Positions 20,505 to 26,977 of a DNA stretch of 64,000 nt are shown one piece after another. The translations under genes and the position numbers were made by a program. The stretch is from NCBI GenBank assembly GCA_015999985.1, contig JAECRA010000009.1, forward strand, positions 1 to 64,000. Direction: 5' to 3'. This stretch comes from Comamonadaceae bacterium. Lineage in GTDB: Bacteria > Pseudomonadota > Gammaproteobacteria > Burkholderiales > Burkholderiaceae_C. The notes under the pieces are model-generated. The model was not told the DNA's origin. It ran no database searches and worked only from the letters and a program-made list of their open reading frames with translations. Position 1 is the stretch's first letter, and every line of letters begins with the position of its first letter.

Positions 20505-20520
20505 GGGCACGCCGCTTGCC
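20505..20520 (+). promoter_or_regulatory. Sigma-54 promoter GGGCACGCCGCTTGCC
   Basis: Matches TGGCACG-N4-TTGCW apart from the first and last base; -24 GG and -12 GC spaced by 10 nt; upstream of the 20624 ORF. Confidence 0.75.
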
Positions 20521-20623: not shown

Positions 20624-20944
20624 ATGAACAAGCCCACTATCAAGAAGACATCTCCCAGCCCCCCCCCTGCCGAGCGCATCATCAGGGCCGCCGACCAAGC
20701 GCAAGCGTCCGGACGAACCGGCACTGCGGACAAGGAACTGCGCCTACCCCATGAAAGAGATCAAAGTGCCGACTCGACGAGTCCCCGCATTGATCCGCGT
20801 ATCAAGCAAGCCAAGGAAGATATCGATGCAGGGCAAGTCGATACGGACTTGAGGCAAGCGCCGGGCCTGGATGCTGCCGCGCGCAAGAAAATCATGGACA
20901 AACCAGGCACAAGCCATCAGGCTGGCCGCAAAGACCAGAAATAG
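20624..20944 (+). CDS. Hypothetical hydrophilic charged protein (106 aa)
   Basis: MNKPTIKKTSPSPPPAERIIRAADQAQASGRTGTADKELRLPHERDQ... with RBS AGGAAGG and an upstream sigma-54 promoter. Confidence 0.6.
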   Translation: MNKPTIKKTSPSPPPAERIIRAADQAQASGRTGTADKELRLPHERDQSADSTSPRIDPRIKQAKEDIDAGQVDTDLRQAPGLDAAARKKIMDKPGTSHQAGRKDQK

Positions 20945-21002: not shown

Positions 21003-22421
21003 TCAGCTGAGGCGTTTTCTTTTGTCTCCCGCCTCCAAGCCGAGTAACTGCCGGTATTTGGTTACCGTACGCCTGGCCACTTTGAGACCTTGCGATTCCA
21101 ACTGGCGGGCGATGTCGCCGTCAGACAGAGGATTGGCCGGTGATTCAGCGGCGATCATGTCGTGAATGACTTCCCTGATCGCTGTGGGTGAACAAGCCTC
21201 CCCACTGGCACTGGTCAAGGACCTCGAGAAGAAATGCTTGAGCTCAAAAACACCCAGAGGGGTCGACATGTACTTATTGCTTGTCACTCTTGAAACGGTG
21301 GATTCATGCACGCCGACTTCATCAGCGATTTCTCGCAGGATCATTGGTTTCATTGCCATCGCACCGTACTCAAGAAAGTAGCGCTGCTTTCGAACGATGG
21401 CTTGGGCGACACCCAGAATCGTGGCAAAACGCTGCTCCATATTTCGCACGGTCCAGTGCGCGTCTTGCAAATGATCTATCAACTGCGCATGCTCTTTGGT
21501 CTTGTGGCGTTGAAAGAGCTTTTCATACACTTTGTTGAGACGGACATGAGGAACCACGGCGGGGTTCAATTGCACGTCCCACCCCTTACGGTCGCGCCGC
21601 ACAATGACATCAGGAACAATGTAGTCAACTCTTGCCGAGCCATACGACCAACCAGGCCGAGGATTCATCCGCTTGATTCGGTCTATGGTTTTTTCCACGA
21701 CCAAAGGAGCTTCTCCAAGGCGCTTGCTGAGCCCCGTAATGTCCCGCTTCGCCACGGCAGGCAGATGTTCGCTCACCATTGATCTGGCCAGCTCGGCCAT
21801 GCGCGCGTCGTCAATACCGGAACATTGAAGCAACAAGCATTCGCCCACGCTGCGCGCAGCGATGCCTGCTGGGTCAAGCGATTGCACGAGTCGAAGCGCA
21901 AAGGCAAGCTCTTCGACGTCCGGTGCGTGCGCCACGGGAAGAATCTCGACCAGCTCGTGCAGATCGGTTCGCAGATAGCCATCATCGTCCAGGGATTCAA
22001 CGATGGCCTGGCACATGGCGAGATCGCGGGCGGGGAGCGGCATGACGTTCAGTTGCCCATGTAGATGCATGGCCAAGGTCGTGGGCGAAGCGGTCAGATC
22101 CATGGCAGACACATCGGGGCTTTGTGCGCCAGAGGCCGTGCCTTGGTACGCGTCTGCTACCCAGACTTCTCGATCTGGAGAAAGCTCCGCATCCATTGCG
22201 TGGTCTTGCGTTGAGTCAGCAATTTCGTCTGCCGTCGTGGTGCCATGCTCACCACCTTCAATATCTGCTTCGTCTTCCAGAAAAGGGTTCTCTTCCATCT
22301 TCCCTCGCACCATGGCCGCGAAATCGAGCGAAGACATCTGAAGCATTTGAACCGCACGTTGCAGCTGTGGAGACAGGCTGTGAGTCTGCCGAGCGCCAAC
22401 ATTGATTTGCAGAGAATTCAT
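21003..22421 (-). CDS. rpoN: RNA polymerase sigma-54 factor
   Basis: Region I QTHSLSPQLQRAVQMLQMSSLDF; ADEVGVHESTVSRVTSNKYMSTPLGVFELKHFFS; RpoN box ARRTVTKYRQLLGL. ATG at 22421. Confidence 0.96.
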   Translation of the reverse strand: MNSLQINVGARQTHSLSPQLQRAVQMLQMSSLDFAAMVRGKMEENPFLEDEADIEGGEHGTTTADEIADSTQDHAMDAELSPDREVWVADAYQGTASGAQSPDVSAMDLTASPTTLAMHLHGQLNVMPLPARDLAMCQAIVESLDDDGYLRTDLHELVEILPVAHAPDVEELAFALRLVQSLDPAGIAARSVGECLLLQCSGIDDARMAELARSMVSEHLPAVAKRDITGLSKRLGEAPLVVEKTIDRIKRMNPRPGWSYGSARVDYIVPDVIVRRDRKGWDVQLNPAVVPHVRLNKVYEKLFQRHKTKEHAQLIDHLQDAHWTVRNMEQRFATILGVAQAIVRKQRYFLEYGAMAMKPMILREIADEVGVHESTVSRVTSNKYMSTPLGVFELKHFFSRSLTSASGEACSPTAIREVIHDMIAAESPANPLSDGDIARQLESQGLKVARRTVTKYRQLLGLEAGDKRKRLS

Positions 22422-22451
22422 TATTTCCAAATTTTCAAATAATTAGTAGAA

Positions 22452-22467
22452 CGCAACGACCATGCCA
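22452..22467 (-). promoter_or_regulatory. Sigma-54 promoter TGGCATGGTCGTTGCG upstream of rpoN
   Basis: Reverse-strand TGGCATG-GTCG-TTGC; GG and GC spaced by 10 nt; predicted start site about 20 nt before the rpoN ATG. Confidence 0.65.
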
Positions 22468-22598
22468 GTTATTGAGACATGGAAAAAACCTGACAGCATT
22501 TGAGGTGTTATCCTGCATTTCTCGAAATTCAACGACACCCAACGTGGGGGCATTCTTCGTTTCTACATTTGACTTCCACTGTTAAACCGATTTTTTAT

Positions 22599-22645
22599 AT
22601 TTACAGAAATTAGATAACACCCAAAGTTTCTATATTTCTGTAAAT
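22599..22645. repeat. 12-bp inverted repeat ATTTACAGAAAT...ATTTCTGTAAAT in AT-rich intergenic DNA
   Basis: Arms 22599-22610 and 22634-22645, spacer 23 bp. Confidence 0.7.
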
Positions 22646-22789
22646 TTTTCCGTACGTATTACCATCGCCACATCCATTAATATGGCACTGACTTTCTCTA
22701 GCGAATCTGTCCTACTCGCACGCGGGAAAGATTTACCTATACCAAATTAGAAACACTCCGCTTTTTGCATTTAATCAGGCTGATGTTGC

Positions 22790-22805
22790 GGGCACGCTAA
22801 ATGCC
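22790..22805 (+). promoter_or_regulatory. Sigma-54 promoter GGGCACGCTAAATGCC
   Basis: -24 GG / -12 GC with correct 10-nt spacing upstream of the PA2169-like gene. Confidence 0.7.
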
Positions 22806-22851
22806 TGACAAGGGTCCATGCCCCGCGGGGCAAGTTACTTGGAGTTAAACC

Positions 22852-23310
22852 ATGGACCAAAGCGATCTCATAGACACCTTGAATGACCTTGTGGAAAACT
22901 GCAAAGACGGAGAGTTCGGCTTTCGCAGCACGGCAGAGCACACGAAAACTCAAAGCTTGCAACAGTTACTTCAGGCCCGCGCTGATGAATGCCAATCCGC
23001 AGCCAAGGAACTTCAGACGCTCATCTTGCAGCTAGGCGGCAAACCGGCCGACAGCGGCACGATTGCAGGTGCATTACATCGCGGTTGGGTAGCCACCAAA
23101 GGCACCCTTGCTGGTTACAGCGACCTCAATATGCTGGAAGAAGCAGAGCGCGGTGAAGACACCGCCCTGGCCCGCTACCGCGCAGCCCTTAAAGAAGAAC
23201 TGCCGGCAGAAGTTCGCGCCATTCTCCAGCGGCAATACGAAGGCGCCAGCCGCAACCACGTGCAGGTTCGCAGCCTTCGTGACCAAGAGCGAGCCCGAAC
23301 GGCAGCCTGA
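22852..23310 (+). CDS. PA2169-family four-helix-bundle protein (DUF2383-like)
   Basis: MDQSDLIDTLNDLVENCKDGEFGFRSTAEHTKTQSLQQLLQARADECQSAAKELQTLILQLGGKPADSGTIAGALHRGWVATKG. Confidence 0.87.
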   Translation: MDQSDLIDTLNDLVENCKDGEFGFRSTAEHTKTQSLQQLLQARADECQSAAKELQTLILQLGGKPADSGTIAGALHRGWVATKGTLAGYSDLNMLEEAERGEDTALARYRAALKEELPAEVRAILQRQYEGASRNHVQVRSLRDQERARTAA

Positions 23311-23314
23311 TACC

Positions 23315-23330
23315 GGGCACGCCGATTGCC
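23315..23330 (+). promoter_or_regulatory. Sigma-54 promoter GGGCACGCCGATTGCC
   Basis: Near-consensus GGCACG-N4-TTGC, just after the PA2169-like stop and upstream of the repeat-rich ORF. Confidence 0.75.
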
Positions 23331-23422: not shown

Positions 23423-23902
23423 ATGACCAAAACACTGAAAACTCTCGTCGCCGCAGCCGCACTGGCCGCTATGGGTCTAGCACATGCGCAAACCACCCCT
23501 CCGGGACCGGCCAGTGGCGAGCAACCCAATGCCAACACAATGCGCACCCAACCTGGTAGCAGTTCCACAATGCCCTCCAGCGGTGGTGCCAGCACCACGC
23601 AAGGGGTGATGTCCGGCGAACAGCCAAATGCCAATACGATGCGCAACCCTTCCCAGACAGGTTCCACCGCACCGGCAACTGGCGCGAGAACAACGCAAGG
23701 TGTGATGTCAGGTGAGCAGCCCAATGCAACGACTGCGCCAAACTCTGGAACCGGGGCGGCTGGCACTGGAATGCGCTCAAATAGCGGCGCCGCAGGATCC
23801 GGTATGGGTGCTGGATCGGGCTCTTCGAACATGGGGACAGGAACCGGCTCTATGACCGACGGTAGTCGCGCTCCCCGTGCCCCTCGCGCTGACCGCCAAT
23901 AA
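23423..23902 (+). CDS. Secreted low-complexity repeat protein
   Basis: Signal peptide MTKTLKTLVAAAALAAMGLAHA, then repeated SGEQPNANTMR / TTQGVMSGEQPNA units and a Gly/Ser/Thr-rich tail. Start 23423 rather than track start 23108. Confidence 0.65.
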   Translation: MTKTLKTLVAAAALAAMGLAHAQTTPPGPASGEQPNANTMRTQPGSSSTMPSSGGASTTQGVMSGEQPNANTMRNPSQTGSTAPATGARTTQGVMSGEQPNATTAPNSGTGAAGTGMRSNSGAAGSGMGAGSGSSNMGTGTGSMTDGSRAPRAPRADRQ

Positions 23903-24133: not shown

Positions 24134-25564
24134 TTAGAGCTTTTCGACGCCTTCGTTGTTCGCTCGATAGGATTTAAGACGGTTATATAGAGTTTTAAGA
24201 CTAATGCCGAGAACTGCAGCAGTACGTTCTTTCTGATACAGGCATTGCTTTAGGGTTGCTTGTATAAGCATTTTCTCAGCTTGATCCATGGTGAATCCGA
24301 TCGGCACATGCACCTCAGTGACATTTTCAGTGTTGCCTGCAGATTGAGCCGACAATACACCCAAGGCCTCCGGCCCTTGACGCCTCTCCAGTGGCCTCTG
24401 TGATTCCCCAGCTTTTAAAGACGTTAAATCATCCGCCACAGGCAGCCATTCCGGCCCTATAAGCTGACCAGGTGCCATGACATATGCGCGCTGCACTGCG
24501 TTACGAAGTTCACGAACGTTCCCAGGCCAGGGGTATAAAGACAGCTGGTTCAGGGCAGCTTCGCTGAATTCCTTGGCACGCCCTTCCTGCTCGCAAACAT
24601 CGCGCAGGAAGTGGGTAGCGAGCAAAGGCAAATCCGAGAGCCGATCGCGCAAAGGAGGCAGCTCGATAGGAAATACGTTCAACCGGTAAAAAACGTCTTC
24701 GCGAAGTTTTCCTTCAGCGACTGCTTGCTCGGGCACCCTGTTGGTCGCAGCAACCACACGTACATCTGCTTGCCTGCTCTGCGTAGAGCCAACACGCATG
24801 AAGCGCCCAGTTTCCAGGACGCGCAAGAGCTTGACCTGCAGATCCAGCGGCATCTCCGTGACTTCATCCAAGAATAGCGTGCCCCCCGCCGCGCGCTCAA
24901 AAAAACCTTGATGCTGACGCTCCGCGCCAGTGAAGCTGCCCTTTTCGTGCCCAAATATCTCACTCTCAATCAAGTTCGGTGAAATGGCGCCACAGTTGAC
25001 GGCCAGAAAGGGCATGTCTTTGCGTGAACTGAGTTCATGCACCGTTTGAGCCACTAACTCCTTGCCCGTTCCGCTTTCACCCGTCACCAAAACGGTGATC
25101 GACGTAGTGGCCACACGCTCGATCTGCTCGTAGACTTTTTTCATGGGAGCAGATGTGCCCCACATTTTTCCGAAACGCCCGGGTTTCTCAGGTTCTTCGT
25201 GCGGCTTTTTGTCACCGTGAAGACCAGAAAGAAAGAACTCAACTCGGGAGGGCGATATGGGCTTGACCAGATAGTCCATAGCCCCCATACGCAAGGCCTC
25301 GACAGCCGAATCCAGGCTGGCGTTGGAAGTCATGAGCACAAGCTTGGGAGGCAGGCGCGCCTCATTCTCCGATAGCAAATCAAACCCGTTGCCGTCCGGC
25401 AGCATCGAATCCAAAAAAATCAGCTGAGGAGTTTGCAAAATAATCTGTCTGCGCGCGTCCCTCAACGAATGAGCCACCGCAACGGAGAATTGTTGGGATG
25501 CGACAAGCCCTCGCAGCATGGTAGCCGAATCTATATCGGCGTCTACGATGAGCACGTGATCCAT
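24134..25564 (-). CDS. NtrC-type sigma-54-dependent response regulator (REC-AAA+-Fis)
   Basis: REC domain IFLDSMLPDGNG, Walker A GESGTGKE, GSFTGA loop, DEVTEMPLDLQ, C-terminal Fis-type HTH. Confidence 0.95.
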   Translation of the reverse strand: MDHVLIVDADIDSATMLRGLVASQQFSVAVAHSLRDARRQIILQTPQLIFLDSMLPDGNGFDLLSENEARLPPKLVLMTSNASLDSAVEALRMGAMDYLVKPISPSRVEFFLSGLHGDKKPHEEPEKPGRFGKMWGTSAPMKKVYEQIERVATTSITVLVTGESGTGKELVAQTVHELSSRKDMPFLAVNCGAISPNLIESEIFGHEKGSFTGAERQHQGFFERAAGGTLFLDEVTEMPLDLQVKLLRVLETGRFMRVGSTQSRQADVRVVAATNRVPEQAVAEGKLREDVFYRLNVFPIELPPLRDRLSDLPLLATHFLRDVCEQEGRAKEFSEAALNQLSLYPWPGNVRELRNAVQRAYVMAPGQLIGPEWLPVADDLTSLKAGESQRPLERRQGPEALGVLSAQSAGNTENVTEVHVPIGFTMDQAEKMLIQATLKQCLYQKERTAAVLGISLKTLYNRLKSYRANNEGVEKL

Positions 25565-25648: not shown

Positions 25649-25664
25649 TGGCACAAACTTTGCC
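25649..25664 (+). promoter_or_regulatory. Sigma-54 promoter TGGCACAAACTTTGCC
   Basis: TGGCAC-N5-TTGC with correct spacing, upstream of the 25693 ORF. Confidence 0.7.
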
Positions 25665-25692: not shown

Positions 25693-25947
25693 ATGAGATG
25701 TTCAAAATGTTCAGATGATTCACCAGGTCGCTCAGGCCGCGAGTCGATGCCCCAAGGCCGACATACCGGAAGATCGGCCGGGGGGTCATTTTTGCGATCG
25801 GCCGCAGTCGTCGCAGTTGCCTTCATGCTGACGAGAGGTTTAGCGCAGTTAATCCGCGATGCGCCTGTCACTCATAGGGGACCCAACCCAGCAGAGCCTG
25901 TCGGCACAGGCAACGAGCCGCCCGTGGGAGGCGCCATATTTGATTAG
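25693..25947 (+). CDS. Hypothetical small membrane protein (84 aa)
   Basis: MRCSKCSDDSPGRSGRESMPQGRHTGRSAGGSFLRSAAVVAVAFMLTRGLAQLIRDAP...; CxxC near the N-terminus and one hydrophobic segment. Confidence 0.55.
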   Translation: MRCSKCSDDSPGRSGRESMPQGRHTGRSAGGSFLRSAAVVAVAFMLTRGLAQLIRDAPVTHRGPNPAEPVGTGNEPPVGGAIFD

Positions 25948-25969: not shown

Positions 25970-26977
25970 TCATTTGCGCTTTAAAAGGCCAATAAATGCA
26001 CGCTCTTCAAAGGTAAGGCCCGCTTTTTTACCAACGGATTGGGAAAGGCGCGGCCGGGGCAATTCCTCACACATCGCCAATATCTCAGGATGAATGTAGA
26101 ACTTTCGGCAAACCGTGGCTGTGTTGCCCAGTCTTTGCGCTACCCCTTCCACCACTAAGCCAGGATCCATGGCCACAACATCGGCAGAAGTGGCGTTGTT
26201 CAGTGCGCTCAGCACCAGCTTCATGCCATAGGTACTTGCGTGCCACGTACGGAAGTCCTTGGCAGTGAAATTCTCCTGACAACAGCTGCTGATGTAAGCA
26301 TTCACATGATCAGAGCGCACTTGATGCGCACGACCTTGCTCGTCCATAAACTGAAACAGCCCCTGGCCCGGTAGTTCATGGCATTGAAGGATCTTGCGCA
26401 CCACCCTTTTGTCTGAGATTTCTACATGCTGCTTGACGCCGGACTTACCCTTGAAATCCAGCGTCAACCTATGGCCCTCAATTCGCGCATGCCGGCTCTT
26501 GAGAGTGCTCAGGCCATAGGAGTTGCCTTCTGCGACATACTCTTCATTGCCGATGCGCAGGCCCGTCCGGTCCAGCAACCTCAAAACCGCGGCCACGACG
26601 GATGCAAGGCTGACATCGGCACGAGCCAGATCCTTCTGGATCCTGCGCCGTATCGCGGGAAGTGCAGTGCCAAATTGCAGCATGCGATCAAACTTGGCCT
26701 CCTTGCGCTGTTCTTGCCACAAGGCGTGATAGCGGTATTGCTTGCGCCCCTTCGCATCTCTGCCCGTTGCTTGGATGTGCCCACGTGGATCAGGGCAGAT
26801 CCACACATCCTCATAAGCTGGGGGTATGGCCAACTTACGCACCCGCTCCAAGTGATGAGGCGCGGAGATGACCCGCCCCTTGGAGGTAACGTACGAGAAC
26901 CCACCGCGGCGGCGCAGTCGCCGCCAGCCGGCCATCTGATCATTGACATAGAGCAGTCCCGCCCCTGCCTTGGCCAT
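25970..26977 (-). CDS. DNA topoisomerase IB
   Basis: 335 aa: GRVISAPHHLERVRKLAIPPAYEDVWICPDPRGHIQATGRDAKGRKQYRYH, RIGNEEYVAEGNSYGLSTLKSRH; typical bacterial TopIB. Confidence 0.93.
   Translation of the reverse strand: MAKAGAGLLYVNDQMAGWRRLRRRGGFSYVTSKGRVISAPHHLERVRKLAIPPAYEDVWICPDPRGHIQATGRDAKGRKQYRYHALWQEQRKEAKFDRMLQFGTALPAIRRRIQKDLARADVSLASVVAAVLRLLDRTGLRIGNEEYVAEGNSYGLSTLKSRHARIEGHRLTLDFKGKSGVKQHVEISDKRVVRKILQCHELPGQGLFQFMDEQGRAHQVRSDHVNAYISSCCQENFTAKDFRTWHASTYGMKLVLSALNNATSADVVAMDPGLVVEGVAQRLGNTATVCRKFYIHPEILAMCEELPRPRLSQSVGKKAGLTFEERAFIGLLKRK

Follow-up and report, generated by a model that had tools for sequence, protein, structure and literature searches.

A conserved sigma-54 promoter precedes rpoN2, a second sigma-54 gene, in a Comamonadaceae bacterium and points to a probable two-step sigma-54 cascade

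When a sigma-54 gene lies behind what looks like a sigma-54 promoter, which sigma-54 reads that promoter? The question is raised by the gene at 21003-22421 (minus strand) in a 64,000-nt stretch from a Comamonadaceae bacterium (contig JAECRA010000009.1, positions 1 to 64,000; hereafter the window). A first-pass annotation had taken this gene for rpoN and proposed that sigma-54 transcribes its own gene in a positive feedback loop needing activator input.

The identity of the gene bears on the answer. Its 472-residue product, classified with Pfam and NCBIfam (best NCBIfam fit NF009118), has the activator-interacting, core-binding and DNA-binding domains of an RpoN factor, the last with an RpoN box. 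The assembly (G000; 4.34 Mb, 79% complete) contains two sigma-54 genes, the one in the window, rpoN2, and a canonical rpoN1 on contig C35. In the tree, a 100/100 branch divides RpoN2 from RpoN1, with several long end branches, that of the window's RpoN2 among them. This branch and the separate rpoN1 on C35 led me to reject the window gene as the canonical rpoN (rpoN1). The accompanying remark of the first-pass annotation, that rpoN expression is often constitutive or under negative autoregulation, fits rpoN1-type genes; rpoN2 is a gene of another kind. The two factors also differ at conserved residues within the helix-turn-helix (SRVTNNKYM in RpoN2 versus SRVTTAKYM in RpoN1) and within the RpoN box (ARRTVTKYRQ versus ARRTVAKYRE), the parts of sigma-54 that read the -12 and -24 regions of a promoter.

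Elsewhere in the genus, 27 of 28 genomes yielded only rpoN1-like matches and the remaining one no match, and across the family an RpoN2 like the window's was found in 25 of 151 genomes (the window's counted), at about 43-61% identity. A genome scan gave one weak Acidobacteria match, and plasmid matches were all below 43% identity. Two other families of the class also have RpoN2-like proteins, at 42-43% identity (L167 and L168, from G191 and G266), and some genomes carry two RpoN2-like genes each (G106, G147 and G081; L085, L086 and L087). The region upstream of the window's rpoN2 (22422-22851) is AT-rich, with 37% GC in 300 nt versus 55-60% around it; this, together with the absence of rpoN2 from the other genomes sampled in the genus, would fit either a recent gain or repeated loss.

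The ATG of rpoN2 is at 22421, and on the same strand, at 22467-22452, lies the -24/-12 element TGGCATGGTCGTTGCG (TGGCATG-GTCG-TTGC-G), which is close to TGGCACG-N4-TTGC and has its GG and GC 10 nt apart. Transcription from a sigma-54 promoter starts 12 nt after the GC and depends on sigma-54 and an activator. The element stops 30 nt short of the ATG, and sigma-54 geometry (about 12 nt past the -12 C) places the predicted start at 22441 (minus strand), with a leader of about 20 nt; the first-pass annotation had given the element, its GG-N10-GC spacing and the gap of about 30 nt correctly, and had predicted the same leader. The motif by itself, however, is weak proof, since matches to the consensus with up to three mismatches occur in the window at the chance level (146 found, 146 expected). 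A scan with an approximate sigma-54 matrix, entered by hand after the generally known consensus, ranks the rpoN2 element second in the 64-kb window, at 15.2 of 21.6 bits. In the 4.34-Mb assembly there is a single copy of its exact 15-mer, and the pattern TGGCAYRN4TTGC is found 20 times versus 6 for the reversed pattern. The base at -11 is G, versus A or T in the usual consensus, so it is not certain which sigma-54 reads the window's promoter.

Conservation decides whether the element is real. Scoring the best sense match within 300 nt upstream, I found an element in all 25 rpoN2 orthologues (loci oriented by tblastn), with scores of 8.8-19.6 bits and a mean of 14.0, versus 3.4 in shuffles; the roughly 33 rpoN1-type genes compared have a mean of 2.4 bits, and just one exceeds 10. 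Element and start, the latter derived from alignment, are 14-112 nt apart in 23 loci; in the other two the distance is 149 and 229 nt. Sigma-54 elements are most frequent in the kilobase before rpoN2, which has 27 versus about 2 per other kilobase. These statistics ignore kinship, but because the RpoN2 proteins are only about half identical, a simple carry-over of DNA identity is unlikely. That the element is a chance match and an unseen sigma-70 promoter transcribes rpoN2, as the frequency of loose matches might invite one to believe, is thus extremely improbable given its retention in every orthologue, and the 490-nt region searched revealed no sigma-70-like promoter. Judged by this conservation of sequence, the rpoN2 element is not a chance match, and the sigma-54-dependent promoter first proposed for the gene is strongly supported.

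Sites for sigma-54 activators typically lie 70-200 nt upstream. Exact-dyad and k-mer searches gave mere hints of a shared motif above the rpoN2 element; EM motif discovery then recovered one, TTGCGGCAAr, with a log-likelihood of 142 versus 43-49 in shuffles. Of the 24 usable loci (L044 is truncated), about 22, the window's among them, have it 70-230 nt above the element. These same loci, that of the window too, supplied the motif, and its score is therefore not independent; its position and the perfect repeat are. In the window, two copies of TTTCTGTAAA, the putative activator-type site, at 22599-22610 (minus strand, about 140 nt above the element) and 22634-22645 (plus strand, about 177 nt above it), make a perfect 12-nt inverted repeat. 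Strong copies stand upstream of only one of the 20 TGGCAYRN4TTGC sites of the genome, the rpoN2 promoter itself; the next-nearest case is TTGCTGTAAC, 62 nt above a site before a clpS-like gene. The rpoN2 promoter and its predicted activator-type site are conserved in relatives from about 25 genera. In eight loci (L035, L065, L066, L072, L079, L083, L084 and L088) the activator-type motif upstream of rpoN2 has on its far side a second sigma-54 element, which is divergent, and the two promoters could share that one motif. Among the genome's 20 canonical sigma-54 matches that were examined, the strongest is at G000:C21:46667-46681 (L150; TGGCACGGCTCTTGCA), 145 nt before a clpS-like ORF and with TTGCTGTAAC 62 nt upstream.

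A candidate activator is encoded nearby. The gene at 24134-25564 (minus strand) specifies an NtrC-type sigma-54 activator with a receiver, an AAA+ domain (GSFTGA) and a Fis-type helix-turn-helix. With a cut-off of E <= 1e-130 across the 151 family genomes, its family was found in 23 of the 25 rpoN2 genomes versus 0 of the 126 others (p = 3e-25). Of the two rpoN2 genomes without it, one is an 80%-complete assembly and the other has a weaker match beside rpoN2; in most loci the activator gene is within about 10 kb of rpoN2. I therefore presume, from this co-occurrence in sequenced genomes, that it is the partner of rpoN2. That the promoter needs activator input, as claimed earlier, is strongly supported by the conserved motif above it and by this co-occurrence. 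Some genomes have two copies of the activator family (G171, G062, G124 and G147).

A second class of element, with the consensus VGGCAYR-N4-TTGCC (V = G/C/A), precedes stress-type genes around rpoN2. In the rpoN2 loci (27 loci, 460 kb), GGCAYR-Nx-TTGC occurs 89 times at a spacing of 4 and 2-8 times at each of the spacings 2, 3, 5, 6 and 7. Of the 67 elements other than rpoN2 promoters, 60 have C at -11, immediately after TTGC, but none of the 25 rpoN2 promoters does (p = 1.5e-16), the -11 and spacing comparisons both being post hoc, made with the pattern already seen. In the window's genome, 4 of the 68 GGCAYRN4TTGC sites fall in 5.2 kb at rpoN2 (Poisson 1.7e-6). Three TTGCC-class elements, all on the plus strand, lie in 5.2 kb of the window, each preceding an ORF: GGGCACGCCGCTTGCC (20505-20520) is followed after 103 nt by a small ORF of 106 residues (20624-20944, plus strand), GGGCACGCCGATTGCC (23315-23330) after 92 nt by an ORF of 159 residues with a signal-peptide-like start and no Pfam match (23423-23902, plus strand), and TGGCACAAACTTTGCC (25649-25664) after 28 nt by a small ORF of 84 residues with an AAGGAG ribosome site (25693-25947, plus strand). 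Two further genes lie nearby, a PA2169-family four-helix-bundle protein (DUF2383; 22852-23310, plus strand), which is divergent from rpoN2 and also found near it in relatives, and DNA topoisomerase IB (25970-26977, minus strand), a recurrent neighbour of rpoN2. In relatives the genes behind TTGCC-class elements, with start codons picked by a simple rule, include those for hemerythrin, CsbD, BON, PRC-barrel and DUF6496 proteins, PAS histidine kinases and, by sequence resemblance, topoisomerase IB. A stretch RLPHERDxS is common to small unannotated ORFs behind such elements, that at 20624-20944 in the window and those in L068 and L074. PAS-domain histidine kinases stand right behind TTGCC-class elements near rpoN2 at L084:1499-3070 and L071:15101-16261, and these two are candidate sensors for the partner activator.

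With C at -11 the element becomes an inverted repeat, so it might be the palindromic site, GGCA-N7-TGCC, of some other regulator and no promoter at all. This too is very improbable: 59 of 100 GGCA-N7-TGCC sites fit the asymmetric sigma-54 pattern, the remaining 41 being near the 21-34 seen at other spacings, and many TTGCC-class elements lie 30-60 nt ahead of start codons that have a ribosome site. The asymmetry and the spacing controls led me to reject the palindromic reading, and I take the elements as putative sigma-54 promoters. How far the class extends beyond the rpoN2 loci is another matter. GGGCAYRN4TTGCC is only mildly commoner genome-wide in rpoN2 genomes (2.16 versus 1.48 per Mb, p = 0.004). 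Outside the island, the TTGCC elements of the window's genome sit almost all inside long open frames; thus I claim no wide regulon.

The TTGCC-class elements bear on what binds above rpoN2. Motif search found no upstream motif that they share, and the TTGCGGCAA motif is mostly absent from them. TTGCGGCAAr is almost limited to the rpoN2 promoter, and a different regulator may bind it, the 24134-25564 activator serving the TTGCC promoters only. I consider this a real possibility, if one somewhat short of even, because it has against it the near-perfect co-occurrence of the 24134-25564 family, the sole regulator family compared, with rpoN2.

Which sigma-54, then, reads the rpoN2 promoter? Were it RpoN2, acting with the co-occurring activator, the gene would sit in a feedback loop of positive autoregulation. 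The promoter is of the sigma-54 type, the activator family co-occurs with rpoN2, and the rpoN2 of Mesorhizobium loti also lies behind a sigma-54, NifA-regulated promoter (PMC3538637). However, C at -11, which marks most other rpoN2-linked elements, is found in no rpoN2 promoter. Ray et al. describe, in Ralstonia solanacearum, a sigma-54 element, TGGCACAGCCTTTGCA, 63 nt upstream of rpoN2 (RSp1671), and in the same account expression of an rpoN2-lacZ fusion is abolished in an rpoN1 mutant (PMC4371752). The absence of C at -11 and this requirement for rpoN1 make RpoN1 the likelier reader, and autoregulation unlikely. The self-transcribing loop first suggested for this gene accordingly keeps its sigma-54 promoter, but the self-transcription as stated finds no support, given the separate rpoN1, the split at -11 and the R. 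solanacearum result.

The favoured circuit is thus one of two steps. The housekeeping RpoN1 holoenzyme would most likely read the rpoN2 promoter (22452-22467), which would be opened by an activator sitting on the inverted TTTCTGTAAA pair some 140-180 nt above it. RpoN2 would then join core polymerase and read (G/C/A)GGCAYR-N4-TTGCC promoters with C at -11, and those of the surrounding stress-type genes would presumably be opened by the 24134-25564 response-regulator activator. Such a sigma-54 cascade, from RpoN1 to rpoN2 to the TTGCC promoters, with a promoter specificity of its own, is to my mind, on evidence drawn entirely from sequence, the probable arrangement. It looks like a small, separately switched circuit for genes with a putative role in stress rather than a simple self-amplifying loop. 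In a broader form, which I hold to be evenly balanced between right and wrong, the Burkholderiales RpoN2 clade and its dedicated activator would be an orthogonal system at general-stress-type promoters with C at -11 (those of CsbD, BON, hemerythrin, PRC-barrel, topoisomerase IB and other genes), and its own non-C promoter would be under RpoN1, so that the cascade is protected from self-amplification.

Neither step of the cascade is new in kind, and the sigma-54 type of the rpoN2 promoter is already known. A close parallel, by its published description, is R. solanacearum RSp1671, likewise a second rpoN in Burkholderiales with a sigma-54 element upstream; the available portion of that description is without an upstream activator site, a partner activator or a -11 promoter class (PMC4371752). 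The M. loti rpoN2 is also a second sigma-54 gene behind an activator-dependent sigma-54 promoter, but it is alphaproteobacterial, lies in an operon prxS-rpoN2 and belongs with NifA and a nitrogen-fixation regulon (PMC3538637). Rhodobacter (Cereibacter) sphaeroides offers paralogous sigma-54 factors, RpoN1 and RpoN2, which are stated to differ in their activators and in recognition at -11, where their specificity partly lies (PMC4676750). Unlike the window's system, however, that pair serves flagellar and nitrogen-fixation genes. For the window's system I infer from sequence that C at -11 is linked to RpoN2. In the open-access papers searched I found neither the combination of features nor the conserved motif above rpoN2 nor its co-occurring activator, and the conserved activator site, the partner activator and the split at -11 appear to be new.

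Sigma-54 is usually seen as one shared factor that takes its specificity from activators. Here, a sigma-54 paralogue, its presumed partner activator and promoters set apart by a single base appear to occur together in about 25 genera, beside stress-type genes. Elsewhere the role in stress-gene expression is played by RpoS, SigB or EcfG. The system therefore offers tests of how sigma-54 paralogues discriminate between promoters, and of what keeps a sigma-54 cascade from amplifying itself.
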